Notes under the pieces: generated by a model
Told to the model about the DNA's origin: nothing
Seen by the model: the letters and a program-made list of their open reading frames with translations, nothing else
Database searches by the model: none
Shown: positions 43,816 to 61,610 of the stretch, piece after piece
How positions within the stretch are numbered: position 1 is the first letter of the stretch
Layout: every line of letters begins with the position of its first letter
Position numbers and translations under genes: made by a program
NCBI GenBank assembly: GCA_949524905.1
Contig: CATINC010000004.1
Span: 177,840 to 241,839, forward strand
Source: Opitutia bacterium UBA7350
Lineage (GTDB): Bacteria > Verrucomicrobiota > Verrucomicrobiia > Opitutales > Coraliomargaritaceae
DNA length: 64,000 nucleotides
Reading direction: 5' to 3'

Positions 43816-45318
43816 TCAGGGTGATTTAGCCTCAATCTGGTATCCTTTTTTTCGCGCCTCCATCGCCCAAGTATAAATCTGTTCGTAGGTATCAGCCGAT
43901 TGATCCCATCTGAAATCTGCAGCCATTCCATTTGCTTGTAATTGCGCAAACTCCTCAGGACGGTCAAAATACGTGGAGCAAGCCCATCCAACCGTATCGT
44001 AAAACGCCTCTGCGGTAGGCGCATCAAAACGAAAACCAGTCCCCAAACCACTGCCCTCAAGGTATTGCTCAACCGTATCCACCAAACCACCGGTAGCCCG
44101 TACAATCGGAGGCGCACCGTATTTCATAGAATACATCTGACTCAGGCCACATGGTTCAAATCGGCTGGGCATCAAAAGAAAATCAGATCCTGCCACCGAC
44201 AGGTGTGCCAGTTGATTATCAAAACCTATATAAGATGCGAAACGTCCAGGATTTTGATTTGCCAAGAACTTAAAGGCTTGCTCCAGCGTAGGATCCCCTG
44301 TCCCCAGCACTGCAATCTGGATATTCATGGTTTCCAACAAACGCTGCCCCGTTGCCACAAGTAAATCCAGTCCTTTTTGATCCACCAGTCGTGAAACGAT
44401 TGAAAAAAGCGGGACATTGTCCGCCTGATTCAGTCCAAAAGCAGTCTGAAGCGCTGCCTTACAAGCAGTCTTTCCCTTTAAATCATTCGCTGAATAACGT
44501 TCAGGTAAATACAGATCCGTTTCTGGGCTCCACTCGTTCTCATCAATGCCATTGATCACTCCAATTAAATCTGCTGCTCGAAACTTCAAGAGCTTTTCTA
44601 AACCGCATCCGCCATCCTCTTCCTGAATTTCTCGAGCATACGTCGGGCTGACTGTTGTGATCTTACTAGAGTGATAGATGCCCCCCTTCAGCATGTTCAC
44701 TTGCCCGTATGCCTCGAGACTATCACTGCGAAAAGTTACCTCTGGCAAGCCTGCAAACTCTAGGGTATCTTTAGGAAAGTAACCTTGATGCTGTACGTTG
44801 TGTAAGGTCATTACAGTGGCGACCTGCTCCATGGGTTTGCCCTGCTCTGTTGTGTTCAGATACACCGGCAATAGCCCTGTTGGCCAGTCATGGCAGTGCA
44901 CCACATCAGGAATCCAACCCAATTGATAGCACAAATCAATGGCCGCACGGGAAAAAAATGAAAACCGTTGAGCGTTATCTGCCTCATTTCCAGACGGACC
45001 ACAGTAAACTTCAGGTCCATCAAAATATAAATTATGCTCCAACAAATAACAAATCGCCTCACAACCCGGTAAGGACACTTCCCAAACCTGAGCATAAGCC
45101 GTCTCCCCACCCAAATTAACAATTAAGGGTGAAGATTTGAGCGGCACGGCAGTTTCAATTCCAGTTAAAGAGGCGTATTTTGGAAGTACGATACGCACAT
45201 CATGCCCGCGCTGACTCAAGGTCTTTGAAAGAGCTCCGACAACATCAGCTAAACCGCCTACCTTTATGAATGGCACCAACTCTGGTGTCACCATTAGGAT
45301 TTTTTGAACCGTGCTCAC
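43816..45318 (-). CDS. glgA: Glycogen synthase (ADP-glucose type)
   Basis: GT5 glycosyltransferase of 500 residues that extends alpha-1,4-glucan from ADP-glucose. It carries the N-terminal MVTPELVPFIKVGGLADVVGAL with the ADP-binding KVGGL, HCHDWPTGLLPVYL, TLHNVQHQGYF and the C-terminal acceptor region MPSRFEPCGLSQMYSMKYGAPPIVRATGGLVDTV (in pieces). I chose the GTG at 45318; the frame reaches 45372, overlapping the exosortase gene, and a start at ATG 45360 is also possible. No other glg gene is present. Confidence 0.94.
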   Translation of the reverse strand: MSTVQKILMVTPELVPFIKVGGLADVVGALSKTLSQRGHDVRIVLPKYASLTGIETAVPLKSSPLIVNLGGETAYAQVWEVSLPGCEAICYLLEHNLYFDGPEVYCGPSGNEADNAQRFSFFSRAAIDLCYQLGWIPDVVHCHDWPTGLLPVYLNTTEQGKPMEQVATVMTLHNVQHQGYFPKDTLEFAGLPEVTFRSDSLEAYGQVNMLKGGIYHSSKITTVSPTYAREIQEEDGGCGLEKLLKFRAADLIGVINGIDENEWSPETDLYLPERYSANDLKGKTACKAALQTAFGLNQADNVPLFSIVSRLVDQKGLDLLVATGQRLLETMNIQIAVLGTGDPTLEQAFKFLANQNPGRFASYIGFDNQLAHLSVAGSDFLLMPSRFEPCGLSQMYSMKYGAPPIVRATGGLVDTVEQYLEGSGLGTGFRFDAPTAEAFYDTVGWACSTYFDRPEEFAQLQANGMAADFRWDQSADTYEQIYTWAMEARKKGYQIEAKSP

Positions 45319-45343
45319 AATTGAATCTTTTTTCGGCCTAGGC

Positions 45344-46396
45344 TTAGCCAGGATCTCCATCAGAATCCTCAATTAAAAATTCATCCGGAATTTTTGGGGA
45401 ATAATTAATAATAGGCAACAAACACAAGAGACCAGTACAAGTCACTCCAAGGATTAGGAAACCTGTCACATCATGCACTGTACCAATATCGCCGATTAAA
45501 GGAAGCACCCAATGCTCGTCGATCGCGTTGGAACCATGATTATAAGCCCAATAAGTCAGAAAAAGGGCGCGACATAAATTAGTGATAAAGGCAAGGCTCA
45601 TGGCAAACCCTATCAAAAGTAACTTTTTCCAGATTTTTTCTAAAAAGACAGCTGCCAAAAAAGAACCCGCAAAAAGACAAGCCGTCAAAGAGCGAATACC
45701 CGAACAGGCTTCCTCAACTCCAACTCGATCCTCGCCATTCAAAACCAGCACACTACCCTCGCGCTCAAGAGTAGCGCCCGTTAAATCAAAAACGGTAAAG
45801 ACCACTGCGGTTACCTGTGACTGCAAAAATACCAAAACTGCCTTTTGTATCACACTAACCAAAGGTGCAGATAGAAGCCAAATGAGCGCCGGAAAGAGAA
45901 ACAGCAAAGCCAAAGCCAAACGACTTTTAAGCGCCATTGGTTCGCCATCTGCACGTTCCTTAGAAAAAATGAAGACCCCAGATAAAAAGATGCTTGCAAA
46001 GCCGACGGAGATCGCAAGCGATGCCGGATTCTGCGGACCAGTCACCGCTCGCAAGAAACCTCCGATAAAAAATAAAACGATCCCCAATATGAGGGCAGCC
46101 GTGGCTATCCACTCCAAAACTACCGTGAGCCTAGATCGACTTGGAGCTTCGTTTGAACTTTCCTCACCTAAGCGTACCCCGCGAAAAAGATAGGATTGAA
46201 TCTGTGGCCAACGATCATAAATGACATAGACTGCAAACAGAGGGACTAAAAAGCCAAAACTGTATTCATCATTTGTTTGCCACCAAAATAACTGATCCCA
46301 AACCATGAAGATCGCCAATCCCAAAAACAAAAAACAAACATTTTGCGTTTCCTTTGGCAAATTTAAGAAGGCACCTGCGTTGTTATCCTCAATCAC
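45344..46396 (-). CDS. Exosortase/archaeosortase family protein
   Basis: Membrane protease-transpeptidase of 350 residues, with about eight helices. The three catalytic residues of exosortases can be seen: Cys231 in VEEACSGIRSL, Arg276 in NLCRALFL and His308 in GTVHDVTGF. Exosortases cut PEP-CTERM tails and pass the protein to the cell surface or exopolysaccharide; the PEP-CTERM protein at 4251 is a candidate substrate. No EpsI-like domain or PEP-CTERM operon accompanies it. The start is GTG 46396. It lies directly upstream of glgA, with 25 bases between, perhaps by chance. Confidence 0.92.
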   Translation of the reverse strand: MIEDNNAGAFLNLPKETQNVCFLFLGLAIFMVWDQLFWWQTNDEYSFGFLVPLFAVYVIYDRWPQIQSYLFRGVRLGEESSNEAPSRSRLTVVLEWIATAALILGIVLFFIGGFLRAVTGPQNPASLAISVGFASIFLSGVFIFSKERADGEPMALKSRLALALLFLFPALIWLLSAPLVSVIQKAVLVFLQSQVTAVVFTVFDLTGATLEREGSVLVLNGEDRVGVEEACSGIRSLTACLFAGSFLAAVFLEKIWKKLLLIGFAMSLAFITNLCRALFLTYWAYNHGSNAIDEHWVLPLIGDIGTVHDVTGFLILGVTCTGLLCLLPIINYSPKIPDEFLIEDSDGDPG

Positions 46397-46559
46397 GACC
46401 TATAAATAGTAAAGTTTTGCTTTTAAACAGTATGAACTCTTTAGAAAGCCCTTAATTTAACCGATAGCAACCCCATAAATTTAAAATAAGCTCGCCAATC
46501 GCACTTGAGAATTTGATTCGACCCATATCCTTACTCCACCCATACTAATATCCAATTTT

Positions 46560-47087
46560 ATGTCAAACTCTGACCGATCCAATGACCCCGCTGAATCTAA
46601 GCCGGGATTTGAAAGCCTGCAGGCCCATTGGCGCATGCCGTATATTCTCGCACCTAAATGCGATCCTAATTCGGCTAATCCTTTTGCTTCGCTACCAGAT
46701 AAAGATGATGCTGAAAGTCTTATTCTCCTGCGCAGAAAGTACAACTACACTGTCCTCAATCGATACCCCTACAATGCCGGTCATCTCTTAGTGGTGCCCT
46801 TTGAGGAAGTTTCCGATCTTCAAAATCTATCGACTGTGGCGCGTCATGAACACATTGATTGCATCACCGAAGCCCAAGCCCTTCTCACCCGCGCCTTAAA
46901 TCCCGAAGGTTTTAACATCGGCTACAATTTAGGAAACGCCGCAGGTGCGGGGATTCCGGTGCATCTACATTGCCACATTGTACCGCGTTGGCATGGTGAT
47001 ACCAACTTTATGCCAGTTATCGGCAACACCCGTGTCTTACCGGAAGCCCTGCAATCCATGTGGGAACGCCTACGTCAGTTCATTTGA
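46560..47087 (+). CDS. HIT family hydrolase
   Basis: Protein of 175 residues with the histidine triad His135-x-His137-x-His139 in VHLHCHIVPRW and upstream YPYNAGHLLVVPF, NIGYNLGNAAGAGIPVH. It is of the Ap4A-phosphorylase/HinT type and likely hydrolyses dinucleotide or nucleoside phosphate bonds; substrate unknown. About 60 residues precede the fold, longer than in HinT. It heads a run of same-strand genes (phoH, HD protein, ybeY) and 40 bases separate it from phoH. Confidence 0.9.
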   Translation: MSNSDRSNDPAESKPGFESLQAHWRMPYILAPKCDPNSANPFASLPDKDDAESLILLRRKYNYTVLNRYPYNAGHLLVVPFEEVSDLQNLSTVARHEHIDCITEAQALLTRALNPEGFNIGYNLGNAAGAGIPVHLHCHIVPRWHGDTNFMPVIGNTRVLPEALQSMWERLRQFI

Positions 47088-47127
47088 AGGCCCTTCCATT
47101 AACAATCTTTTCACCACCCTCCGATTT

Positions 47128-48081
47128 ATGCCATCCGACACCTTACATTTTTCAGATGCTCGGCACCTTAGCCAACTGTATGCAAACGATCCGCGATATC
47201 TCGATGAGATCGACCATGTCTTTGGGACTAAAACCACAACTCGAGATGATTGGATCACTTTTGAAGGTGAACCGACAGCGATCGGAAAGGCACGTGATGT
47301 CTTTGAAATACTCGATACCGCACGCAAACAAGGGCTGCGTATACGCGGATCTGACCTACATCACACTTTACGCTCTGTCTCTAAAGGGCGTGCTGAGGAA
47401 TTACGTGATATCTACCGCAACCCCTTCGTGATTGAACTCAAACAACGGAGCATTATCCCTAAAACGCTGAATCAAAAACGATACCTGCAAGCGATCGAGC
47501 AGCACCCCATCACTTTTGGAATCGGACCAGCCGGCACCGGTAAAACTTACCTTGCCATGGCTATGGCACTACGAGATCTACTCGCCGGGTCCGTAGAACG
47601 TATCATCATTACCCGTCCCGCAGTTGAAGCAGGTGAGGCACTTGGCTTTCTGCCGGGTGAACTTCAAGAAAAAATCCTACCCTACCTAACCCCGCTTTAT
47701 GATGCCATGCATCAAATGATCGGCAAAGAAAGTGCCAGCCAACTCCTTGAACGCGGTATCATAGAAATCGCACCCTTAGCTTATATGCGTGGGCGCACCC
47801 TCTCCAACGCCTTTGTAGTGCTGGATGAAGCCCAAAATACCACCCATGAGCAAATGATGATGTTCCTCACTCGCCTCGGAGATGGAAGTCGTATGGTTGT
47901 TACTGGAGATGTCACTCAAATCGACCTGCCGCGCACAAAACTCTCCGGACTCGTTGAAGCCACACGGATTTTAGGAGGCATTAAGAATATTGAACTTTTC
48001 AACTTTTCAGGTGAAGATGTCATCCGTCACCCCCTTGTGCAATCAATTATCCGAGCTTATGCACAGCAAAGCCAGGAATAA
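47128..48081 (+). CDS. phoH: PhoH family ATPase
   Basis: Protein of 317 residues from ATG 47128. The Walker A motif is GPAGTGKT (133-140), with IITRPAVEAGEALGFLPGEL, the Walker B VVLDEAQNTT and the C-terminal GDVTQIDLP. This is the PhoH ATPase/helicase domain, linked to RNA metabolism and usually found beside ybeY, as here. The frame is open to 46945, but that part lies over the HIT gene and carries no family residues. Confidence 0.94.
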   Translation: MPSDTLHFSDARHLSQLYANDPRYLDEIDHVFGTKTTTRDDWITFEGEPTAIGKARDVFEILDTARKQGLRIRGSDLHHTLRSVSKGRAEELRDIYRNPFVIELKQRSIIPKTLNQKRYLQAIEQHPITFGIGPAGTGKTYLAMAMALRDLLAGSVERIIITRPAVEAGEALGFLPGELQEKILPYLTPLYDAMHQMIGKESASQLLERGIIEIAPLAYMRGRTLSNAFVVLDEAQNTTHEQMMMFLTRLGDGSRMVVTGDVTQIDLPRTKLSGLVEATRILGGIKNIELFNFSGEDVIRHPLVQSIIRAYAQQSQE

Positions 48082-48115
48082 TCCTTTGGAAAAAACTACC
48101 TAAACGCTCTGCACT

Positions 48116-50443
48116 ATGGCCGATTCAAAAAGCCCTAACCACAAAAGCCGCAAAAACGAAGCGCGTCGACTTCGTAAGCGTAAGATTCGCAAGCTCAAGC
48201 TCGACTCGCGCCAAATCATTGAGGCTTCTCTATACAGTCTTCTTGTCCTCGGATTGATCTGCATTGCATTCCTGGGCAGGCAACCAATGGGACCACAAAT
48301 CCTGCTCAATCAACCCGCACCCACGCGGATCGTTGCGGAATTTCCCTTTGAGTATACAAGCGAAATTATACGTCAACGCCAGGCTAGGGCAATTCGTGCA
48401 CAAATACCTCCGGTCTTTAAACGCAGTGATGCACCTTTCCTAGAATTCAGCACCGCCCTCAGTAATCTCCAAAATCGATTCGCAAAAGTCCTCATTGAAT
48501 TTGAAGACGAAGATAAGGAACGTCTACTTGAAGAAAAAAATAAAGCGACCACCGAATGGATAGAGGTCTCTGGCCTAGAAATCGACCCAGATATAATAAC
48601 TGAACTCTTTGAGCGCACCAACCCCAAAGAACGCGCCAAACTTTTTGAAGAAGCATTGGAAGCACTCCATTCGCTTTATCAAGATGGGATCTACACTGCT
48701 CCTGATGCCCAAAATACTAACAGTATTTCCGTTATCCAACTCCTTGATGATACCAGCAGCAACGAACTACCCGCTGCACGCACCCGCTCCGCCGCAGAAA
48801 TTGCCCTCCGTCGACAAATTGACTCAATCTCACGCAATGACAAAACTGCGCGCGCCCTTTTCAGCTTCTTTAACGCCGGACTTAAAGACAATTTAGTCTA
48901 CAGCGAAACCGACACCGCTGCTGCGATCGACCAAGCCATTTTTGAGATCGAACCCACTCTTTTTGCCTTTACCAAAGGCGACACCCTAATCGAACCAGCC
49001 GCCACCATTGAGCAACTCGACCTTGAGCGCATGGAACAATATTCCGCTGCCGCTCTTGAAGACGGCAACGATCCCACCTTCTTCAATGCCCTCTTTCTCG
49101 AGCGCCTTGTCCTCACCGCTTTTCTCCTCATTGCAATTGGCCTTTTTCTCAAACAAGGCCTCCGCAATTACCCCAATCGCACCCAAGCCTTTGTCATCAG
49201 CGCAGTCTGCCTTCTTGTTAATCTCTTCATCATTCGACTCATTCTTGAATTTGGAGAACTCGTTGCAGTCAATAACCGTGGCGTCCTCAGTATCCTCCCT
49301 TATTTCGCCCCGTATGCTTTAGCTCCAATACTAGTAGCTGCTCTTACCGGCATGACCCCTGCGATTTTTACTGCTCTTGTTATCGCCACTCTTTTTGGAA
49401 TCTCCCAAGGCAACTCTATTGAGTTCACCCTCATTGCCTTCCTCTCAGGCGTCGTTGGGGCTTACTACTCCAACAATATCCGTTCTCGTACTCGACTCTT
49501 CCGAGCCGGACTCTTCGCCGGGCTTGCAGCTGCTATTGCTGCCATCATGACAGGCATCTTGAGTAATTTTTCTGCCGGATTAATTACAGAACTGTTTTTT
49601 CTTAGTCTGCTAATTGGAGTCCTATCTGGCATAATCGCAGTCGGGGTACTTCCGCTCCTTGAACATCTTTTTAAGATCACCACCGATATCACCCTCCTAG
49701 AGCTTACCGACTTTAATCACCCCCTTCTGCGCCGAATGCAGGTTGAAGCTCCAGGCACCTACCACCATAGCCTTATGGTGGCCAATCTCTCAGAAAACGC
49801 TGCTGCTGCTATCGGTGCCAGCCCCTTGCTCTGCCGCGTCTGTTGCTTCTTTCACGATATCGGAAAGTTAGTTAAGCCAGAATATTTCACCGAAAACCAA
49901 CGCGACGGACTCAACCCTCATGATGAAAAGAACCCTTCCATGAGCGCCCTCGTCATTAAGGCGCACGTAAAAGAAGGCATCGAACTCGCCCGAGATCATA
50001 AACTCCCTCATGTGATCCACGACGTCATCCAGCAACATCACGGAACCACCCTCATTCAATACTTCTACCATCAAGCCCGCGAACGCCTTAAAGAGGATCA
50101 CGACAACAATACCCCTGTTATCGATCAAAGCACCTACCGCTACGATGGCCCACGCCCTGCATTCAAAGAAAGCGCCATTATCTTCTTTGCCGACGGCGTA
50201 GAAGCCGCAAGCCGCACGCTTCCAAAAGTTACCCAGTCAAACATCGAAGACCTCATCGATAAAATTTTTCGTGACCGAATCGAAGACGGACAACTCGACG
50301 ACTGTCCCCTTACCTTCCAAGAACTGAACAAAATTCGAGAAAGCTTTGTCTACACCCTCCTCAATATGCTCCATTCGCGTGTTGAATATCCCAAGGACGA
50401 TAACAAAAACGAGCCTGCCCCTAAAGCAACCGCATCCTCTTAG
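48116..50443 (+). CDS. pgpH: 7TM-HD domain phosphohydrolase (PgpH-like)
   Basis: Protein of 775 residues: a basic cytosolic start and one helix (about 38-58), an extracellular domain (about 70-310), seven helices (about 325-520), and a C-terminal HD domain with YHHSLM (His550) and FHDIGKL (His580-Asp581), then IQQHHG and a long helical end. PgpH in Listeria degrades c-di-AMP; the same architecture here suggests c-di-AMP turnover, but no cyclase (DacA) gene is in the window. It lies in the phoH-ybeY cluster, its stop one base from the ybeY ATG. Confidence 0.92.
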   Translation: MADSKSPNHKSRKNEARRLRKRKIRKLKLDSRQIIEASLYSLLVLGLICIAFLGRQPMGPQILLNQPAPTRIVAEFPFEYTSEIIRQRQARAIRAQIPPVFKRSDAPFLEFSTALSNLQNRFAKVLIEFEDEDKERLLEEKNKATTEWIEVSGLEIDPDIITELFERTNPKERAKLFEEALEALHSLYQDGIYTAPDAQNTNSISVIQLLDDTSSNELPAARTRSAAEIALRRQIDSISRNDKTARALFSFFNAGLKDNLVYSETDTAAAIDQAIFEIEPTLFAFTKGDTLIEPAATIEQLDLERMEQYSAAALEDGNDPTFFNALFLERLVLTAFLLIAIGLFLKQGLRNYPNRTQAFVISAVCLLVNLFIIRLILEFGELVAVNNRGVLSILPYFAPYALAPILVAALTGMTPAIFTALVIATLFGISQGNSIEFTLIAFLSGVVGAYYSNNIRSRTRLFRAGLFAGLAAAIAAIMTGILSNFSAGLITELFFLSLLIGVLSGIIAVGVLPLLEHLFKITTDITLLELTDFNHPLLRRMQVEAPGTYHHSLMVANLSENAAAAIGASPLLCRVCCFFHDIGKLVKPEYFTENQRDGLNPHDEKNPSMSALVIKAHVKEGIELARDHKLPHVIHDVIQQHHGTTLIQYFYHQARERLKEDHDNNTPVIDQSTYRYDGPRPAFKESAIIFFADGVEAASRTLPKVTQSNIEDLIDKIFRDRIEDGQLDDCPLTFQELNKIRESFVYTLLNMLHSRVEYPKDDNKNEPAPKATASS

Positions 50444-50444
50444 T

Positions 50445-50903
50445 ATGATAATCGCCGTCAGTAACCGCTATCCCGATCTTCAAGACCCCGTAATCGCAAC
50501 TCAATGCCTTGCCGACTGCACCCAATCATTAGCTGAGTTTACCCTTCCTTCAGGAGAGCTCTCGATTGTTTTTGTCGATGATTCAGCTATCTCCAGTATC
50601 CATCATCAATTCATGAAGGATTCGAGCCCTACCGATGTTATTACTTTCAAAGCTACGCCTGAGATGGACTCCGCCGGTGAGATTATAGTCTCAGTCGACC
50701 ACGCCCGTGCCCGTGCCAAGGATTTAAACCTTCCTTTCGCCCGCGAACTCGCCCTTTACCTTGCGCATGGATGGCTCCATCTAGCCGGCTTTGATGACCA
50801 CAATGATGAGGACCGAAAAAAAATGCGTTCCGCTGAAAAAACCATTCTCGATGCACTCGACCAGCTCCCTCAATTCCCCGATTTTCAAATCGTAAAAAAA
50901 TAG
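50445..50903 (+). CDS. ybeY: Endoribonuclease YbeY
   Basis: Protein of 152 residues from ATG 50445, immediately after the pgpH stop (TAG-T-ATG). The zinc motif HGWLHLAGFDDH (from His108) and the upstream SPTDVITFKATPEM segment are characteristic. YbeY matures the 3' end of 16S rRNA and takes part in ribosome quality control. It completes the HIT-phoH-pgpH-ybeY cluster, a frequent order. It converges on the CrcB-Psd gene, 12 bases apart. Confidence 0.94.
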   Translation: MIIAVSNRYPDLQDPVIATQCLADCTQSLAEFTLPSGELSIVFVDDSAISSIHHQFMKDSSPTDVITFKATPEMDSAGEIIVSVDHARARAKDLNLPFARELALYLAHGWLHLAGFDDHNDEDRKKMRSAEKTILDALDQLPQFPDFQIVKK

Positions 50904-50915
50904 CGACGATCCAAC

Positions 50916-52247
50916 CTAAGGGGTATCGGTAAATAATTTTTTGCCCGTGGTTTTTCCACAAGACTCACCCATTCGAGCGTAAACTTCCGTCCCCTGAATA
51001 GCTTGATCCAGTAGGTCTGTATCAAATTTGACTGTGCCTGGCTTAAAAAGTGTGACCACACAGGAACCACCAAAACTAAAGTATCCCTTCTCACCCCCTT
51101 GTGCCACCGTGCCGGGCTTGTAAGTCTGATGAATTCCACCCACACAGGTTGCTCCTACTTCAAAAATCAGAACCTCTCCAAATTTTGGAGCGTGTAAATG
51201 CGTCCGAGTGCGTCGGTTCTCCCACAAAATTGAGAGTTTACGCCGTAATGCCAAAGGACTAACCGAGCGCAAACTTCCTTTTAAAGAAACCGAAGCATTG
51301 ACCTCTCCCGCTAACGGGAAATGAAATCGATGATAATCAATCGGGCACAAGCGCGAAATCAACAGCGCACCGCCAGCAAAACGTTTAGCCACCTCAGCAT
51401 CACCAACAAAATGCACCAAATCGAAAGCCTGTCCCTTGATATAAAAGACTGAGGCCGCATCAACATTAGGAATAACAAGGTGTCGGCCATCTGCCGGGAA
51501 TACCACTGTTTCTAAACCACCCTCAATCGGACGGGCTCCAGCTTGTAAACGACGATAGAAAAATTCATTAAAATGCCGAAAACCACCTTTGGGTTCGATA
51601 AATTCTTTGCGGTCCAATCGAAAGTGTCTAATAAACGGTCCAATTTTTGCACGGCTCTTAGTTTGGTTCATACGCCAGCCGTACCAAACTGAAAACCACG
51701 CCCGCTGCACAAAAAGCCATACCGTGAGACGGCCAATGGCAGTACCATAAGCCCACCGCATAAAACCCTCTCCATAAATCGGCTCCCATTGAAGCACCCC
51801 TTTAGCACGATCAAAGTATTCAATTCTAGCATTTAAAACCCCTTCCCTTCCTTGAGCGCGTCTGCGTGCGAGCGAAAACCCTAACCATACCGCTAAGAGA
51901 CTCAAAACTACGCTTCCAGCACCGTACAATCCTGCTACTAGACCAGAACCTCTCAACAATAGATCTAAAAGCTCTTTGCTAAAAAGAGAAAAAGTGGTGT
52001 AACCCCCGCAAAAACCTGTGACCCAAAAATGCCAACTTACAGAGGACGCACTCTGCCCACTTTGTTGTATCTTGAGACCTGCAATTCGCCCCACTAAGTA
52101 GGAACCACTTACATTTATCAAAATCGTGGCCAATGGCAAGTAGAGGCCAAGCCCGACAGCAACAAGCACGATAACGATACGCAAGACTCCACCCAGCGAA
52201 GAGCCAAGTGCAATCAACGATAGATCTTTTATGCAAATCGTTTTCAC
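50916..52247 (-). CDS. CrcB (Fluc) fluoride-channel domain fused to phosphatidylserine decarboxylase
   Basis: One frame of 443 residues, GTG start at 52247 overlapping the stop of the free crcB by one base. Residues 1-130 are CrcB-like: [21 protein letters not shown], the signature [14 protein letters not shown] (77-90), four helices, and a basic stop (LARRRAQGR). Residues about 138-443 are a complete Psd: [23 protein letters not shown] start, FFYRRL, Asp253 in FPADGR, His306 in CPIDYHRFH, and the pyruvoyl Ser395 in [10 protein letters not shown] (usual GGST has become GGSC). Psd cuts itself at Gly394-Ser395 and makes phosphatidylethanolamine. Why a fluoride channel domain is attached is unknown; it would anchor the enzyme to the membrane. 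No stop or frameshift is seen at the junction. Confidence 0.93.
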
Positions 52248-52606
52248 TAATATTTACCCATTATCCATCCAGAACCCACAAGAAAGGCCATGAGGCTCAA
52301 GCCAAGACTTAAAATTACATAAATAACTAAAGTCAGCCGTCGACCCTCTGATAAAAGAGTTATATTCTGAAGGCTGAAAGCTGAAAAAGTCGTGAAACCA
52401 CCGCAAAACCCTAACAACAAATAAGCCCTCATGGGGTGTTCCATCACGAGTCCCAAACTAGCACCCATCAGCGCACTTCCAAGGATATTTACCATGAGGG
52501 TGCCCCATGGAAAGAAATTCCTCTGCCAGCCTGCGCTAAGCGTGACCACCAGATGTCGCGCAACCCCGCCCATTGAACACCCCATAACTCCGAGCAAAAT
52601 TTCCAT
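52247..52606 (-). CDS. crcB: CrcB (Fluc) fluoride channel subunit
   Basis: Protein of 119 residues with four helices: [24 protein letters not shown] and the signature [16 protein letters not shown] that lines the fluoride pore. Family members work as dimers, either homodimers or as two unlike genes side by side; here the partner would be the CrcB domain of the fusion protein directly downstream (one-base overlap). The start is ATG 52606, with AAGG directly in front. The leader to the divergent rnr gene lacks a full fluoride riboswitch. Confidence 0.94.
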
Positions 52607-52703
52607 CCTTGCATCTATGTAATAATACGCGCTCCTGTAAAGCCCCCGATATCGTTGTTTTCATCATCGCCAAGCTTCTACTAGCAACCAACACTCATTC
52701 TTA

Positions 52704-55115
52704 ATGGATCTCCGTAAAAAAATATACGCACTCATCAAAGCACCCGACTACCTCCCCTTAAGGCAGGAGGAAATTATCGCCGTCCTAAAACTCAACAAAG
52801 ACGCTGCCCGCCGAACCCGTAAAATCCTTCAAGGGCTTCTTGATTCAGGTGAAATCGCTCGGATAAAAAAAGACCGCCTTTGCCTTACAAATGACGCCAA
52901 CCTTATCAGCGGGCGTATCCAATTCCGTCAAAGCGGGTCCGCCGTTTTAATTCCTGATGCAGATGCAGGTAAAAAAGGCATACAGGGTCATCCTGTAAAC
53001 GCCGAGGACACGGGTGTAGCCCTCCACGGTGACCACGTCCTTGCGCGTATCCAAGAAGGCCGCCAACGAGGCTATTATCGAGGACGCCGCAGAGAGCGCA
53101 ATTTTCGTAACCCTGGAAAACCAGATCAAAATGAAAAACCAAACGTTCGAGTCATTCGCATCCTTAAACGCGCCCGCGATACCGTAGTAGGCAACTTAAA
53201 AAAAGGACGTCATACTTTCTACGTCATACCTGATGACCCACGCATCATTCAAGATTTCCTAGTCCCAGATCCTCGAAACTCTGGCCTAAAACCACTACCG
53301 AAGGTCGGCGATAAAGTTGTGCTTAAACTCATTGACTGGACTCAACGCCACCTAAACCCCGAGGGCGACATCATTGAAGTGCTCGGCAAAACTCATGCGC
53401 CCGACGCAGAATTTAAAGGCATCCTTCATAAATACGAACTCAACCCAAATTTTCCTTCTGCTGTCCTCAAACAAACTGAAACAATCCCTGAGCACGTCCG
53501 TGCAAGCGATTGTAAAGGTCGCCAAGATTGCCGCGACCTTCTCACCTTTACCATCGACCCCGACGACGCAAAAGATTTTGACGATGCCCTCTCCATTGAA
53601 GAACTCGAAGGCGCCCGCTATCGCATTGGAATTCATATCGCGGATGTCTCGGCCTACGTTAAACCCGGCACCCCTCTCGATATTGAAGCGCAAAAACGCG
53701 GTAACAGCACCTATCTCGTCGGGACCGTTATCCCAATGTTACCGCATGCACTTTCAAATGGGCTTTGCAGTTTAGTTGAGGCCGAAGACCGCCTAACTAA
53801 ATCCGTTTTCATCACCTATACCTCAAAAGCCCAAATTGAAGCAGTGGATTTCGCTAATACGGTCATCCGCAGTAACAAACGTCTTACCTACCGACAAGCC
53901 TTTGCCTTCATGGAAAAAGACGATCTTAAGGCCATCCGCAAAACCCCATTACCACCCAAGCATCAAACCGGTTCAACCGGAAGACCTCTCAGTGAACTTG
54001 ACGACCCTGAGATGGAAACGCTGCAGCGCCACACCCGTTCTCTGTGGCAAATCGCTCGTCAACTTCGCCAGCGTCGTTTCAAAAACGGTTCTCTAGATCT
54101 TGATATGACTGAGATCAAAATCTATGTGGATCCCCAGGGATATGCCGACCGCATTGAAAAACAGGTAAATGATGAAAGTCATCAACTCATTGAAGAATTC
54201 ATGCTGTCTGCCAATGAACAGGTCGCCCGCCAAATGAAGCGCAACCAATTCCCCTGCCTTTACCGCGTTCATGACGAACCCGAAGAAGAGAAACTACAAG
54301 AGCTTCGGCAAACTATGGTTTCTTTTGGGATTACCTGTGGCAACTTGACCCGCAGCCATGAAATGTCTGCTCTCTTGAAACAACTTAAAGAACACCCACA
54401 AGGCTATACTCTTAAAACTCACGTTCTTCGCAGTCTCAAACAAGCACAATACCGAGCCTCGCCTGACGGACACTATGGACTTTCCAAGAGCGACTACACC
54501 CACTTCACTTCTCCGATTCGTCGCTACTCCGACCTCATTGTCCACCGCATTTTCGATAGCTTCCTCTGTAAAACCGGAGCTGCCTCTGCTCCCAAAAAAC
54601 CGGACACTCAGTACCCACAGGCAAAATTAGACGCCCTTGGCGAGCATCTCTGCATCACCGAACGTAATAGCGTCGATGCTGAGCGGGAATCGGTAAAAAC
54701 CAAACTCCTCGAATTCTACGAGCGCGAACTCGATAAAGACGACAAGCAAAGCTTTGGCGCTGTTATCACCGACATTAAAAACCACGGCCTCTATATTGAA
54801 ATCACCGATACTATGGCCTTCGGAATGGTACACATATCTACCCTTGATGATGATTTCTATCATCTGAGTGAAGATGGCAGCCGTATGGTTGGTCGACGCA
54901 AAAAGAAAACCTATCGCGTTGCACAAAATATCCACGTTCAAGTTGAACGCGTTGACCGTTTTAAGCGACAAATTGATTTCCGCATCATGGATGAACCAAA
55001 TAAAGCTAAAGCTACATCCGCCAAAAAGAAGCAAGCAACCACGGCGGCATCCGCAAAAGAACTCGGAGCTATTAGAAAAAAACGTAGGAACAACCGCTCC
55101 AAAAAGCTTTCTTAA
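52704..55115 (+). CDS. rnr: Ribonuclease R
   Basis: Exoribonuclease of 803 residues: an N-terminal winged-helix (about 10-60), two cold-shock-type domains (about 70-245), the RNB catalytic domain with [12 protein letters not shown] (about 284-295), SNGLCSL and the later [18 protein letters not shown], an S1 domain (about 690-765) and a Lys-rich tail ([24 protein letters not shown]) as in RNase R. It degrades structured RNA 3' to 5'. The ATG at 52704 is the family start. It is divergent from crcB by 97 bases. Confidence 0.94.
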
Positions 55116-55254
55116 TCTAATGTTAAATGCCCCCTAATCCCCTATCACTCTATTGGTGCAAACGAATCGAGTAATACATATAACTCCTTCTTTGAACTGA
55201 ATTCTGAAGTGCAATCTCATCCGATCCGTTTTTCATATTAAGATTAATGTATTA

Positions 55255-58200
55255 ATGAAAGGCATCTCCAAGCTTGTATTTTACTGCCTCTTTACACTTG
55301 GACTGATATGCTTAGTCCTAAACCAGGTTCAAAGATCGACTCCCAACGACGATACTAAATCAAAACCTAGCATTGTTGAAGAGAATCACATCGACCCATT
55401 TACAGCTAGCCCCATCGAACCGTCAGGGTCTGAAACAGATATAATTGTCCATCCTCCAGAATGCCCATGTGGACAACACCAGCAGGGACACCAAAAGAGT
55501 TCGCCTAAGGCTACTGAAAGGTACCCATCACTCAAGCTACCCAAAGACTTCATTAACGCCCTGGGTCGTAACACTCCCGGTGACCCTATTCGCTTTGATT
55601 TGCCTGAAGGCAGCTTTGCCAGCGGTCACATCCAAGGCCGAGAATTTGATCTCAAAGGTCAGATTATTGCAATTGAGGGTACCCTTCATTCCCCAAAATC
55701 AGGACGCTTTATGTTTCGCCGGGAAATCCTCGCAGGGAACGCTTGGCCAATGTCTGGCGTGGTTATTTTTGACGAAGGCAACTATGCTTACCGTATTGAA
55801 CCTAGCACCATTAATTACGGAACAGCTGAGCTAATTAAATATCCTCTCGATGAAGTGATTTGTAACAATTTCAAGGGCCTAAAAGCCGAAGCTATTCCAG
55901 AGAGTGAAACAACCGAGATTCTTCCTGAAGATCACCCGACCGACATTCCGATACCCGATTACCAAAACGGCGTCATACCCCTTGAAAGCCTACCCGGCAC
56001 AGCCGCCGTCTTATACCTCGATTTCGATGGTGAAGCTGGTCCTCACGGAAGTTGGGGTGATTTTGATGCCCATCCAGCAACCAATCTCAGTCTCAGTAAT
56101 ATTTTTCAAATTTGGCGTCGTGTTGCGGAAGACTTTGCTCCTTTCAACTTTAACGTCACAACAGATCTGCAAGTCTACCTTGATGCTCCTGAAAATTCTA
56201 GACAGCGCTGTATCATTACGCCCACCGATGATGCCTACCCGGGAGCAGGCGGCGTTGCCTATCTTAGGTCGTTCGACTGGAGTGGTGACACTCCCTGCTG
56301 GGCTTTTTACAGTAGTGGAAAATCAGCCGCTGAAGTTATCTCGCACGAACTTGGACATACCTTGGATTTAAGGCATGATGGACAAACGGACCCCAGTGAA
56401 GATTATTACAGCGGTCATGCCAGTGGCGATATAGGTTGGGCACCTATTATGGGAGTTGGCTATTACAAAACGCTCACTCACTGGTCCAAGGGGGAATATG
56501 CAAATGCTAACCAATCCCAAGACGACATTCAGATCATTGCCTATAATAACAATAACGTAGGCATACGAACCGACGACCACGGCAATACCCGCGAGTTAGC
56601 CAGCTATCTAGAAATCTTTTCGGATGATTCCGTCGACAGTGACGGCACAATTTCAACCGCTACTGATGTTGATGCCTTTAATTTCACCACCACCGGCGGA
56701 CAAACCACGCTAAGCATAGACCCTGAATCCTATGGCCCTAATCTTGATATCTATGCCGCACTTTTCAATGATCAAGGCACGCTTATTCAATCCTCAAATC
56801 CTGATACCCGCACCGATGCCACCCTCTCTACAAACCTTTCAGCGGGCAACTATACCATTAAAATTAGCGGAACCGGACGCGGTGATCCTCTTGCCTATGG
56901 ATATACCGACTATGGCAGCCTCGGTAGTTATTCAATCACCGGAACAGCAGTCGGTGGAGTCGAAGTTAATTACACCCCCACGATGGCAAACCCTAGTAAT
57001 GCTACGATCTACGAAAATGCTTATCCCGGCACTCCTATTACCGACTTTATTGCTTCTGATACCAACACTGAACAAACGCTGACCTACACTATCAGCGGCG
57101 GCAACTCAGCTGGAATATTTTCCCTTGATGCCAGCAACGGAAAACTAAGCCTAACAAGCTTCAACGCTCTGGATGCTCAGAGCACCCCAAACCACACCAT
57201 AGAAGTGAGCGTTACCGATAACGGAAACCCTGCCAAATCTACCACAGCCTCAGTTCAAATCTCGGTCCTTTCTTCAAGTGCAATCAAAGCCACGGGTCCC
57301 GTACAAGAATTTTGGAACAATATCAGCGGCACAAATCTCACCTCCCTCTACAACGATGCCAACTGGCCAGAGTTTCCAGACGCCATCAACCAAGGAAACA
57401 ATTTTCAAGGCTTATCAAACTACGCTGATAATTACGGCTCTAGGATACGCACACATCTCACGCCTGAAACTACTGGCGACTATACCTTCTATATTTCCAG
57501 CGATAACGTCAGCAGCCTTATTTTAAGCTCCGATGCGACCGCCGCTAACGGAAACCAAATTGCAACCGTTGGCTCATGGACCGGCGTCTTATCCTGGAAT
57601 GAATTCAGCTCCCAAGCATCCAACCCAATTACCTTAGTAGCAGGTCAGTCATATTTCATCGAAGCTCGGCTCAAAGAAGGCAACAGCGCAGATCATCTCG
57701 CGGTTGGTTGGACAGGTCCAAATATTTCCACCGTCTCCGTTATTCCCGCTGAAAGACTTAGCCCTTACGACTCCAATACTGCTCCAACTTTTTCAAGCAG
57801 TAGTTATACCTTTAATTTAGCAAATAACGCTCTCGTAGATACCGTTATCGGAAGTGTATCTGCCTCCAGTCAATCCTTTGAAAACATCCTTTATAACACC
57901 CTTGGCGGAGATGACCAAAATGTCTTTTCCCTTAATCCAAACACTGGTCAAATTACCCTTACTCAACCAAACCTGATCATTCCAGGTCAAATCTTTGATC
58001 TGACCATCGGTGCTCAGGACAATGGATATGGAGGACTTTTTCCATTAAAAGAATCAAGCGTAAAAGCCACTATTACAATCTCAGGTACACCGATACAAAC
58101 CTGGCGCGGTCAAAACTTCGGTAACGATATCGCAAACCTCCAGATCACCAGTGACCTCATTGACCCGGATAATGATCAGATAAATAACCTACTCGAATAC

Positions 58201-58491
58201 GCCTTTAATCTCAATCCACTACAATCCGATGAACCTTCAAACTTACCACAAATCCAAACCGCCAACAACAAACTCGACTTTATATATCGCAAAAACCTAA
58301 ACGCCACTGATCTTTCTTACACCATCATGCAGGCGACTGAACTAAAAACGCCCAATCCATGGTCTGCCGCATCCGTATTAAGTGAAGAAATTATCAGTGA
58401 TGACGGATCCACTCGACTCATCCGCGCTACCCTAGCAAACCCCAATAACGCTGATAAACGCTTTATTCGGCTCCAAGTGGATTTACCATAG
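55255..58491 (+). CDS. Large secreted zinc metalloprotease with PPC, cadherin-like and PA14 domains
   Basis: Protein of 1078 residues with an N-terminal signal-anchor (7-24). Residues about 85-210 have no known motif. Residues about 248-410 hold a peptidase domain with HELGHTLDLRH (His364, Glu365, His368, His374), a HExxHxxxLxH zinc site. Then come a PPC-like beta domain (about 440-565), a cadherin-like repeat (about 575-672), a PA14 domain (about 680-840), a second cadherin-like repeat (845-945) and a C-terminal segment DPDNDQINNLLEYAFNLNPL found at the end of many verrucomicrobial exoproteins. It is likely to be a surface or secreted protein degrading or binding polymers; the substrate is unknown. 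Met turn residues of metzincins are not evident. Confidence 0.85.
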   Translation: MKGISKLVFYCLFTLGLICLVLNQVQRSTPNDDTKSKPSIVEENHIDPFTASPIEPSGSETDIIVHPPECPCGQHQQGHQKSSPKATERYPSLKLPKDFINALGRNTPGDPIRFDLPEGSFASGHIQGREFDLKGQIIAIEGTLHSPKSGRFMFRREILAGNAWPMSGVVIFDEGNYAYRIEPSTINYGTAELIKYPLDEVICNNFKGLKAEAIPESETTEILPEDHPTDIPIPDYQNGVIPLESLPGTAAVLYLDFDGEAGPHGSWGDFDAHPATNLSLSNIFQIWRRVAEDFAPFNFNVTTDLQVYLDAPENSRQRCIITPTDDAYPGAGGVAYLRSFDWSGDTPCWAFYSSGKSAAEVISHELGHTLDLRHDGQTDPSEDYYSGHASGDIGWAPIMGVGYYKTLTHWSKGEYANANQSQDDIQIIAYNNNNVGIRTDDHGNTRELASYLEIFSDDSVDSDGTISTATDVDAFNFTTTGGQTTLSIDPESYGPNLDIYAALFNDQGTLIQSSNPDTRTDATLSTNLSAGNYTIKISGTGRGDPLAYGYTDYGSLGSYSITGTAVGGVEVNYTPTMANPSNATIYENAYPGTPITDFIASDTNTEQTLTYTISGGNSAGIFSLDASNGKLSLTSFNALDAQSTPNHTIEVSVTDNGNPAKSTTASVQISVLSSSAIKATGPVQEFWNNISGTNLTSLYNDANWPEFPDAINQGNNFQGLSNYADNYGSRIRTHLTPETTGDYTFYISSDNVSSLILSSDATAANGNQIATVGSWTGVLSWNEFSSQASNPITLVAGQSYFIEARLKEGNSADHLAVGWTGPNISTVSVIPAERLSPYDSNTAPTFSSSSYTFNLANNALVDTVIGSVSASSQSFENILYNTLGGDDQNVFSLNPNTGQITLTQPNLIIPGQIFDLTIGAQDNGYGGLFPLKESSVKATITISGTPIQTWRGQNFGNDIANLQITSDLIDPDNDQINNLLEYAFNLNPLQSDEPSNLPQIQTANNKLDFIYRKNLNATDLSYTIMQATELKTPNPWSAASVLSEEIISDDGSTRLIRATLANPNNADKRFIRLQVDLP

Positions 58492-58562
58492 CTCACATTT
58501 TTAACTTGCCCCCACCCACCAATCCCCCTTTGGTTCGCGTTTCAACTTTAACACCACTTTTT

Positions 58563-58721
58563 ATGACTCAACATAATAGCTTCAGAGCCTCCGGTGGAGG
58601 TGGCAAAAAAAACCGCACGGTCCTCAAACGTTTCGAACGTGTTGACCTACTCAAAAAGCGCGGTCAGTGGAAAGACGGCGATCGCGTTATTGGCCTAAAA
58701 AAAACCACTCCCGAAGCATAA
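58563..58721 (+). CDS. Small basic protein (TIGR04137 family)
   Basis: Protein of 52 residues from ATG 58563 with the family pattern GGGGKKNRTVLKRFERVDLL followed by KKRGQWKDGDRVIGLKKT. This small basic protein is restricted to the Chlamydiae-Verrucomicrobia-Planctomycetes group and has no known role; its charge suggests nucleic acid contact. The frame extends to 58506, but the family start is the internal ATG. A strong terminator follows 23 bases after the stop, so it ends its own transcript. Confidence 0.93.
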   Translation: MTQHNSFRASGGGGKKNRTVLKRFERVDLLKKRGQWKDGDRVIGLKKTTPEA

Positions 58722-58744
58722 GCTCTTCTCAGTATATTTTCATC

Positions 58745-58775
58745 AAACCCTACACGTGCTGTGTAGGGTTTTTTT
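58745..58775 (+). terminator. Rho-independent terminator after the small basic protein
   Basis: AAACCCTACAC (58745-58755) pairs with GTGTAGGGTTT (58761-58771) around a five-base loop and runs into seven T (58769-58775). TATAAT at 58782-58787, just behind it, may be the -10 of polA, but I see no matching -35. Confidence 0.93.
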
Positions 58776-58832
58776 ATATTCGTATAATATTCAGGTTCGA
58801 CCTCGACCCAGCTCTCCTCAAAAATCCTCACA

Positions 58833-61610
58833 ATGATGCAATCACTTTATCTTTTGGACGGCATGGCCTTAGCATACCGTTCACATTTTGCTTTTATGCG
58901 AAGCCCGATTACAACCTCAAAAGGCTTCAATACTTCTGCAATCTACGGTTTTACCGCTACTCTGGTTGAACTCATTGCTAAACAAAAACCCTCCCACCTC
59001 GCCCTTGTTTTTGATACTTCCGCTCCTACCGAGCGACACAAAATCCATCCCGAATACAAAGCCCATCGAGAAGCAATGCCCGAAGAGCTCGCTGAAGCTC
59101 TACCCCATCTCGACCGCATTGCACATGCCTTTGGCATCCCCACGATTCGATTAGATGGCTATGAAGCAGATGATATCATTGGCACACTTGCGCACCGCGC
59201 CGAAACCGACGGCTTTAATGAAATCTTTATGGTAACCCCAGACAAGGATTTTGGCCAACTCGTTACCGACCGCATCAAAATGTACCGCCCCAGTCGCGGT
59301 GGTGATGATCCTGAAATTCTCGACCCAGCCGCCATTTGCGAAAAATGGCAAATCGCACGCGTCGATCAAGTCATTGATATGCTTGGGCTTTGTGGCGACA
59401 CCGCCGATAACATCCCAGGCGTGCCAGGCATTGGCCCTAAAACTGCCGCAAAACTTCTTACTCAATACGACAACATTGAAAACCTCTTAAAGCATACGGA
59501 CGAACTCAAAGGCAAACAACAAGAACGACTCCGTGACAACGCTGAGCAAGCACGCCTATCCAAGACCCTCGCGACCATTCAACTAGACGTACCCTACACC
59601 TGCAAATGGGATGACCTACAACTCGATAAGCCCGACCCCGAAAAAATCACCCCACTGCTTGTAGAATTCGAATTTCGTACCCTCGGCAAACGAATCTTTG
59701 GTGCTGATTATATCCATCAACAAGCCCCGGAAAATCTTGTCCTTCAAGCCGAGGATGGTCCTACGACTGAGCAGAGCACACAACTCGACCTCGCTGTGCC
59801 GGTTCCCTTTAAACAACTCAAAGATCTTAAGGTCAGCTACCACTGTCTAGAGAAACCTGAAGATATTAGCGCCATGGTGAAAGAACTACGCCATGCTGGC
59901 ACCGTTGCTTTTGATACCGAAACCACCTCCCTGAGTCCCCATCGCGCCAAATTAGTCGGTTGCTCATTCTCCGCAAAGGCTCAATCAGGATACTACGTTC
60001 CTGCCAGCGATGCTGCCCTTGAAATCCTGCGTACGCTTTTTGCGGACCCGCAACTCAAACTCGTCGGGCATAATCTTAAATTCGACCTTTCCATCCTCCT
60101 GGTAAATGACATCACCTTTACTGGAACCTGTTACGATACCCTCCTCGTGCATAGTCTACTTGAACCAACTCAACGCCACGGCCTAGATACCCTCGCTGAG
60201 AATCACCTCAATTATAGCCCCATTCCCTTCACCGAACTCTTCCCTGATCTCAAAAAAGGCGAAGATCTTGATTTTTCTAAAGTGGATCGCCAACGGCTGA
60301 CTGAATACGCTGTTGAAGACGCCGATATCGCCCTCCAACTATGGCAAAAATTCGAACCACTCCTAAAATCCTCAGGGCAAGAAAAAATCTTTCGCGAGAT
60401 TGAAATGCCTCTCTTGCCCGTTCTTGCCCAAATCGAACTCGAAGGCATCAAGCTCGATACCATCAATCTTAAGGAAATCGGTGAAAATTTCCAAAGCATC
60501 ATCGAAACACTTGAAAAACGCATCTTTGATGCTGCTGGGCACAAATTTAATCTTAACTCTCCTCGCCAACTGGGAGGCATCCTCTTTGATGAGCTACAGC
60601 TTGTAGACAAGCCCAAGAAGACCAAGACCGGACAATACGCCACCAATGAACAAGTGCTCACCGCCCTAGCACCAGACCATCCAATCGTGGCCGACCTCCT
60701 CGAGTACCGACAACTTGCAAAACTGAAAAGTACTTACATCGACGCTTTACCCCAAGTAATTGAGCCCAAGACAGGGCGCGTCCATACCCACTTTGGACAA
60801 ATTCAAACCGCTACCGGCCGCCTTACTTCCAATAACCCAAACCTACAAAATATCCCAGTGCGCAGTGAAAGAGGGCGTGCCATCCGTAAAGCCTTTGTCC
60901 CGCGTGCCCCCAACTGGAAAATCCTCGCCGCTGACTATTCCCAGATCGAATTACGCGTTCTGGCAGCACTCACCCAAGACAATGACCTCCTGCAGGCATT
61001 TCGCGATGGGCAAAATATTCACAGCGCAACCGCCGCCAAACTCTTCAATGTTAAACCAGAAAACGTCACTCGTGAACAACGCAGCACCGCTAAAATGGTC
61101 AACTTTGGTATCCCATACGGCATCTCGGCGTTCGGCTTGGCGCAACGACTCGGCAATACCAGTCGCAGCGAAGCTCAAGAAATCATTGACAACTACTTTC
61201 AGCAATTTCCCGGCACGCGTGCATTCATGGATTCTCAAAAAGAATTTGCTCTTAAAAATGGTTACGTCGAAACCCTCTGCGGGCGACGACGCCAGCTCCC
61301 AGATATTGAATCCCGCAACGCCACCATACGCAATGCCGCCGAACGCAATGCCATCAATATGCCCATTCAAGGAACCGCAGCAGATATGATCAAACTTGCT
61401 ATGACTCGGGTGCAAAAATCCATTATAGAAAGACAACTCCAATCTCGCCTCATACTTCAGGTTCATGACGAACTCGTCTTTGACCTCGCACCCAATGAGG
61501 AAACAACCCTCTGTGAAATAATCACTGAAGGAATGACTCAAGCGCTCCCGCTCGATTGCCCCGTTGAAATCGATATCGGTATTGGGCAAAATTGGCTCGA
61601 AGCACACTAA
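58833..61610 (+). CDS. polA: DNA polymerase I
   Basis: Protein of 925 residues with all three domains. The 5' nuclease lies at about 1-260 (LLDGMALAYRSHFAF, YEADDIIGTLA, GDTADNIPGVPGIGPKTA). The 3'-5' exonuclease at about 345-520 keeps the acidic residues Asp361 and Glu363 in FDTETTSL, so proofreading is likely intact. The polymerase occupies the rest: LTSNNPNLQNIPVR, DYSQIELRVLAAL, the O-helix region RSTAKMVNFGIPYGIS and the catalytic HDELVFD. It fills gaps and removes RNA primers. It is followed after 19 bases by a small RNase III-like gene. Confidence 0.96.
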   Translation: MMQSLYLLDGMALAYRSHFAFMRSPITTSKGFNTSAIYGFTATLVELIAKQKPSHLALVFDTSAPTERHKIHPEYKAHREAMPEELAEALPHLDRIAHAFGIPTIRLDGYEADDIIGTLAHRAETDGFNEIFMVTPDKDFGQLVTDRIKMYRPSRGGDDPEILDPAAICEKWQIARVDQVIDMLGLCGDTADNIPGVPGIGPKTAAKLLTQYDNIENLLKHTDELKGKQQERLRDNAEQARLSKTLATIQLDVPYTCKWDDLQLDKPDPEKITPLLVEFEFRTLGKRIFGADYIHQQAPENLVLQAEDGPTTEQSTQLDLAVPVPFKQLKDLKVSYHCLEKPEDISAMVKELRHAGTVAFDTETTSLSPHRAKLVGCSFSAKAQSGYYVPASDAALEILRTLFADPQLKLVGHNLKFDLSILLVNDITFTGTCYDTLLVHSLLEPTQRHGLDTLAENHLNYSPIPFTELFPDLKKGEDLDFSKVDRQRLTEYAVEDADIALQLWQKFEPLLKSSGQEKIFREIEMPLLPVLAQIELEGIKLDTINLKEIGENFQSIIETLEKRIFDAAGHKFNLNSPRQLGGILFDELQLVDKPKKTKTGQYATNEQVLTALAPDHPIVADLLEYRQLAKLKSTYIDALPQVIEPKTGRVHTHFGQIQTATGRLTSNNPNLQNIPVRSERGRAIRKAFVPRAPNWKILAADYSQIELRVLAALTQDNDLLQAFRDGQNIHSATAAKLFNVKPENVTREQRSTAKMVNFGIPYGISAFGLAQRLGNTSRSEAQEIIDNYFQQFPGTRAFMDSQKEFALKNGYVETLCGRRRQLPDIESRNATIRNAAERNAINMPIQGTAADMIKLAMTRVQKSIIERQLQSRLILQVHDELVFDLAPNEETTLCEIITEGMTQALPLDCPVEIDIGIGQNWLEAH

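Follow-up and report, generated by a model that had tools for sequence, protein, structure and literature searches.

The window analyzed here, a 64,000-nucleotide stretch of the genome of Opitutia bacterium UBA7350, contains a single continuous open frame that joins a CrcB/Fluc fluoride channel subunit to a phosphatidylserine decarboxylase (PSD), immediately downstream of a separate crcB gene. This crcB2::psd gene brings two known families together in a new domain combination, which is confined to a single genus. It probably reflects a recent, genus-specific fusion of neighboring genes, in which one half of a heterodimeric Fluc channel and a self-cleaving cytoplasmic PSD would both have stayed functional and would be linked only physically.

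Gene layout, distribution and origin

The fusion occupies positions 50916-52247 of the window on the reverse strand (443 residues from a GTG start; all coordinates of the two genes given below are on this strand), and the upstream crcB1 lies at 52247-52606 (119 residues), its stop codon overlapping the GTG start of the fusion by one nucleotide (TAGTG). The Pfam CRCB profile (PF02537) matches CrcB1 with an E-value of 6.8e-23 and residues 11-124 of the fusion with an E-value of 4.5e-19, both above cut-off and covering profile positions 2-103 and 4-102 of 103 in the two CrcB domains. Within the fusion, this CrcB2 domain corresponds to residues 1-130 (51858..52247) and includes the Fluc F-box (residues 78-90, 51978..52016) with F86 and F89. 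A linker lacking a psd start codon (residues 129-141, 51825..51863) leads into the PSD domain (residues 142-443, 50919..51824), of which residues 226-430 match PS_Dcarbxylase (Pfam PF02666, E-value 1.2e-46) over positions 1-196 of 198. The best-matching PSD model is NCBIfam PRK00723 (residues 142-433), at 323 bits and thus below its equivalog cut-off of 371. The initial annotation had described one frame holding both a complete CrcB/Fluc domain and a complete PSD, next to a normal CrcB overlapping it by one base, and this description holds in full.

On the same stretch, the two genes converge with a forward-strand series encoding a HIT protein, PhoH, a 7TM-HD hydrolase (PgpH-like) and YbeY (46560-50903), and diverge from RNase R (52704-55115). 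Further away are an exosortase of the EpsH family (45344-46396, reverse strand, Pfam E-value 1.8e-38) and a 1078-residue protein (55255-58491, forward strand) that contains cadherin and PA14 domains and weakly matches M12-type metallopeptidases.

Searching the whole genomes of relatives and scanning a single genome for each species recovered the same continuous fusion in two other species of the genus (G001, JAACDB010000033, L036; G002, DKOX01000093, L037), as frames of 483 and 473 codons whose products share 74-75% identity with the window protein along almost the entire sequence. Beyond the genus, no fusion was found among the matches listed from 273 genomes of the order (matches to E ~6e-82), nor in 388 genomes of the phylum queried with the channel, the linker and the start of PSD, nor on plasmids. 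Two additional candidates suggested by the lengths of their open frames (G019 and G013) were rejected, as translation revealed in-frame stops between crcB2 and psd. A literature search, mostly of papers accessible without subscription, found none relevant on CrcB together with PSD or on CrcB domain fusions.

Other genera of the family (Puniceicoccaceae) carry crcB1, crcB2 and psd as separate genes of matching order and orientation (G025/L038, G031, G015, G019/L039, G033, G009, G006, G017, G013, G059 and G062; G061 shows crcB2-psd), and differ from the fused genus in that psd has an ATG of its own, located 10 codons before the conserved core wherever the start could be placed (11 in G059). Both this ATG and the crcB2 stop codon are gone from all three fusions, and nucleotide alignment against the unfused relatives places a gap of ~25 nt in the fused linker. 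The initial annotation would have given up the fusion if the closest relatives all had separate genes here, and this applies only in part: the two closest species carry the fusion, and separate neighboring genes are seen in those that come next. Evolutionarily, the ancestor would have had three adjacent genes on one strand, and a deletion of ~25 nt between crcB2 and psd would have taken out the stop codon of the former and the start codon of the latter, so that crcB2 reads into psd. In three protein trees, one per gene, the fused trio is split from the unfused genes on branches with 96-100% bootstrap support, which is consistent with one single fusion event.

In the window genome (G000) and in G001, the 15 codons preceding the PSD core contain no in-frame ATG, GTG or TTG, so that PSD would hardly be made there without the channel domain, while G002 retains a GTG 5 codons before the core, and some free PSD may be produced there. 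The window genome (1.67 Mb, 99.97% complete) yielded no second PSD and no further CrcB beyond crcB1 and the fusion; G001 and G002 likewise have one PSD and two CrcB each. The window genome also encodes pssA (TIGR00473, above cut-off). PssA makes phosphatidylserine (PS), which PSD converts to phosphatidylethanolamine (PE), and with the fusion as sole PSD, PE synthesis in this organism should thus run through the fusion protein.

Elsewhere in the family, the content of these genes varies: a Pfam search detected a single psd and zero CrcB-family genes in G004, G010, G011, G014 and G018. Members of genus g4 (G005, G012, G016, G020, G023, G026 and G029), with genomes of 0.7-1.4 Mb, lack the family's usual PSD, and G016 has only a distant one (31% identity).

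The channel half and the decarboxylase half

In paired Flucs, one twin carries its positive charge at the termini and in loop 2, whereas in the other it is located in loops 1 and 3, which predicts opposite insertion, with the termini cytoplasmic in one twin and the converse in the other (PMC3755343). Such an opposite charge bias was observed in 14 of 14 pairs compared here, CrcB1 being always negative (N-out) and CrcB2 always positive (N-in), although these pairs are kin by descent and do not represent 14 independent tests. For CrcB2, the bias is +6 in the window genome and +6 to +8 across the fused genus, whereas CrcB1 of the window reaches only -1, which counts against the pairing proposed here. 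Overall, the charge pattern supports a paired, heterodimer-type Fluc, as the initial annotation had supposed, with CrcB1 predicted to be N-out/C-out and CrcB2 N-in/C-in. The CrcB2 domain would then pair with an oppositely inserted CrcB1, and CrcB1 and the fusion together would form an antiparallel heterodimeric fluoride channel. Since the C-terminus of CrcB2 is predicted to be cytoplasmic, the attached PSD would reside in the cytoplasm, where its substrate arises, and on this prediction only the CrcB2 subunit could carry a cytoplasmic enzyme.

The residues required in the Ec2 Fluc (N41, F80 and F83; PMC5636608) have counterparts in both subunits, namely N45, F86 and F89 in the fusion and N40, F74 and F77 in CrcB1. 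CrcB2 has R23, N45, F86 and F89 without exception in 14 of 14 genomes, and the domain matches the Fluc chains of PDB entries 5a40 and 5a43. The CrcB part of our structure model was poor (pLDDT mostly < 55), and the model was used for the PSD part only. Among known systems, the heterodimeric La1/La2 Fluc of Lactobacillus acidophilus resembles the window pair in its neighboring crcB genes, opposite charge bias and N/F/F core in both subunits, but here one subunit bears a 300-residue C-terminal enzyme.

Eukaryotic FEX proteins consist of two Fluc halves joined via an extra transmembrane helix. They share with crcB2::psd the joining of a Fluc domain to another domain within one gene, the difference being that crcB2::psd attaches its Fluc half to an enzyme of unrelated type. 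In two other loci (L041:2929-3726 and L092:631-1428), exactly one stop (TAA then ATG) separates crcB1 from crcB2, which share one frame. A single mutation there would be enough to produce a tandem CrcB fusion, without the extra helix of FEX.

The PSD half matches E. coli PSD (PDB 7cnw/6l06) in sequence, and its modeled fold retrieves the E. coli enzyme with a best E-value of 1e-10. Alignment confirmed the positions assigned in the initial annotation to the F-box and to Asp253 (PADG, 51489..51491), His306 (YHRFH, 51330..51332) and Ser395, these three residues forming the Asp-His-Ser maturation triad and Ser395 also belonging to the predicted self-cleavage site and pyruvoyl precursor Gly394-Ser395 (GGSC, 51063..51068), homologous to Gly253-Ser254 of E. 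coli (PMC7952604). In the latter enzyme, three N-terminal helices attach the protein to the membrane and also matter for self-cleavage (PMC7952604). Their counterpart in the fusion is found at residues ~160-209 (51621..51770), where the model predicts helices at 160-168, 170-180, 183-193 and 196-209, with low confidence at 177-183. The fused PSD is thus similar to bacterial PSDs (E. coli Psd; NCBIfam PRK00723 subfamily) in its Asp-His-Ser residues, its Gly-Ser site, its N-terminal helices and its role as sole route to PE after PssA, but it lacks an independent start and has a four-TM channel domain at the head of its beta chain. From the mechanism of PSD it follows, as previously proposed, that this channel domain should stay on the beta chain (residues 1-394) after the predicted cleavage.

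Taken together, these features suggest the following organization: PSD would be carried on the cytoplasmic C-terminus of CrcB2 via a linker of ~13 residues, would lie on the inner leaflet beside the channel, held there by its own N-terminal helices, and would self-cleave at Gly394-Ser395 and turn PssA-made PS into PE. Both functions would be retained, and the link between them would be physical and stoichiometric. In E. coli, PSD forms a dimer of alpha-beta units (PMC7952604), and channel and enzyme might accordingly assemble in a 2:2 ratio.

A probable tolerated joining, weighed against anchoring, coupling and artefact

Is the CrcB2 domain still a channel? By pairwise counting, and with dS near saturation, pN was 0.24-0.27 against a pS of 0.70-0.80 for CrcB2 in the fused trio, and 0.11-0.14 against 0.61-0.76 for PSD; this low non-synonymous relative to near-saturated synonymous change indicates purifying constraint on both domains. 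However, relative to PSD, the channel subunits have diverged more quickly in the fused genus than in genera g3 and g5 (dN of ~0.31 for CrcB2 vs. 0.14 for PSD in the fused genus, and ~0.13 vs. 0.12 in g5). This hints at weaker constraint rather than loss, and would fit a partial relaxation of channel function. CrcB2 might accordingly be seen as mainly a membrane anchor or a passenger by now, with the fluoride channel on its way to being lost, and the complete loss of crcB in some relatives would agree with such a trend. Yet the pore residues are intact in both subunits, among them the invariant fluoride-coordinating Phe, Asn and Arg of CrcB2, the purifying constraint persists, and CrcB1 is retained next door in all three fused species, while PSD has membrane helices of its own and would need no extra anchor. 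That the channel fold now serves as an anchor and nothing else, one of the possibilities raised in the initial annotation, is thus unlikely.

Less likely again is a functional coupling of the two halves, whereby fluoride flux or the assembly of CrcB1 with CrcB2 would control the maturation or activity of PSD, or local PE would support the channel. If true, this would tie fluoride stress and resistance to membrane lipid synthesis in this lineage, and it is tempting to read in this direction the maintenance of the crcB1-crcB2-psd cluster across several genera of the family, as well as the status of the fused CrcB pair and PSD as sole copies wherever total copy number was counted. Against it, no match to the crcB (fluoride) riboswitch was found in positions 44000-60000 of the window nor in 11 related loci, the family members without any CrcB still retain psd, the samples taken from beyond the family showed no such clustering, and the linker varies among the three fusions. 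(The sole RNA-family match in the window, mir-193, fell below threshold and is spurious.) The link between fluoride export and membrane lipid composition put forward in the initial annotation is hence unsupported and unlikely, and the lack of a riboswitch in the loci searched, the occurrence of psd without CrcB and the family-specific clustering make a tolerated fusion of neighbors the simplest account. Finally, a sequencing, assembly or gene-calling artefact hiding truly separate genes is hardly credible, even though at least the two named fused genomes are metagenome assemblies: the same open frame in three separately assembled species, with proteins 74-75% identical and an aligned linker from which the crcB2 stop and the psd ATG are both gone, rules out a frameshift or misassembly.

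This is a clear example of a fusion between neighboring genes for which the states before and after the event both survive within one bacterial family. It also provides a natural topology test for paired Fluc channels, as the enzyme sits on the subunit whose C-terminus is predicted to be cytoplasmic, which supports a fixed and opposite insertion of the two subunits. Lastly, with PSD bound obligatorily to a channel, one could ask whether PE synthesis tolerates a fixed position in the membrane.
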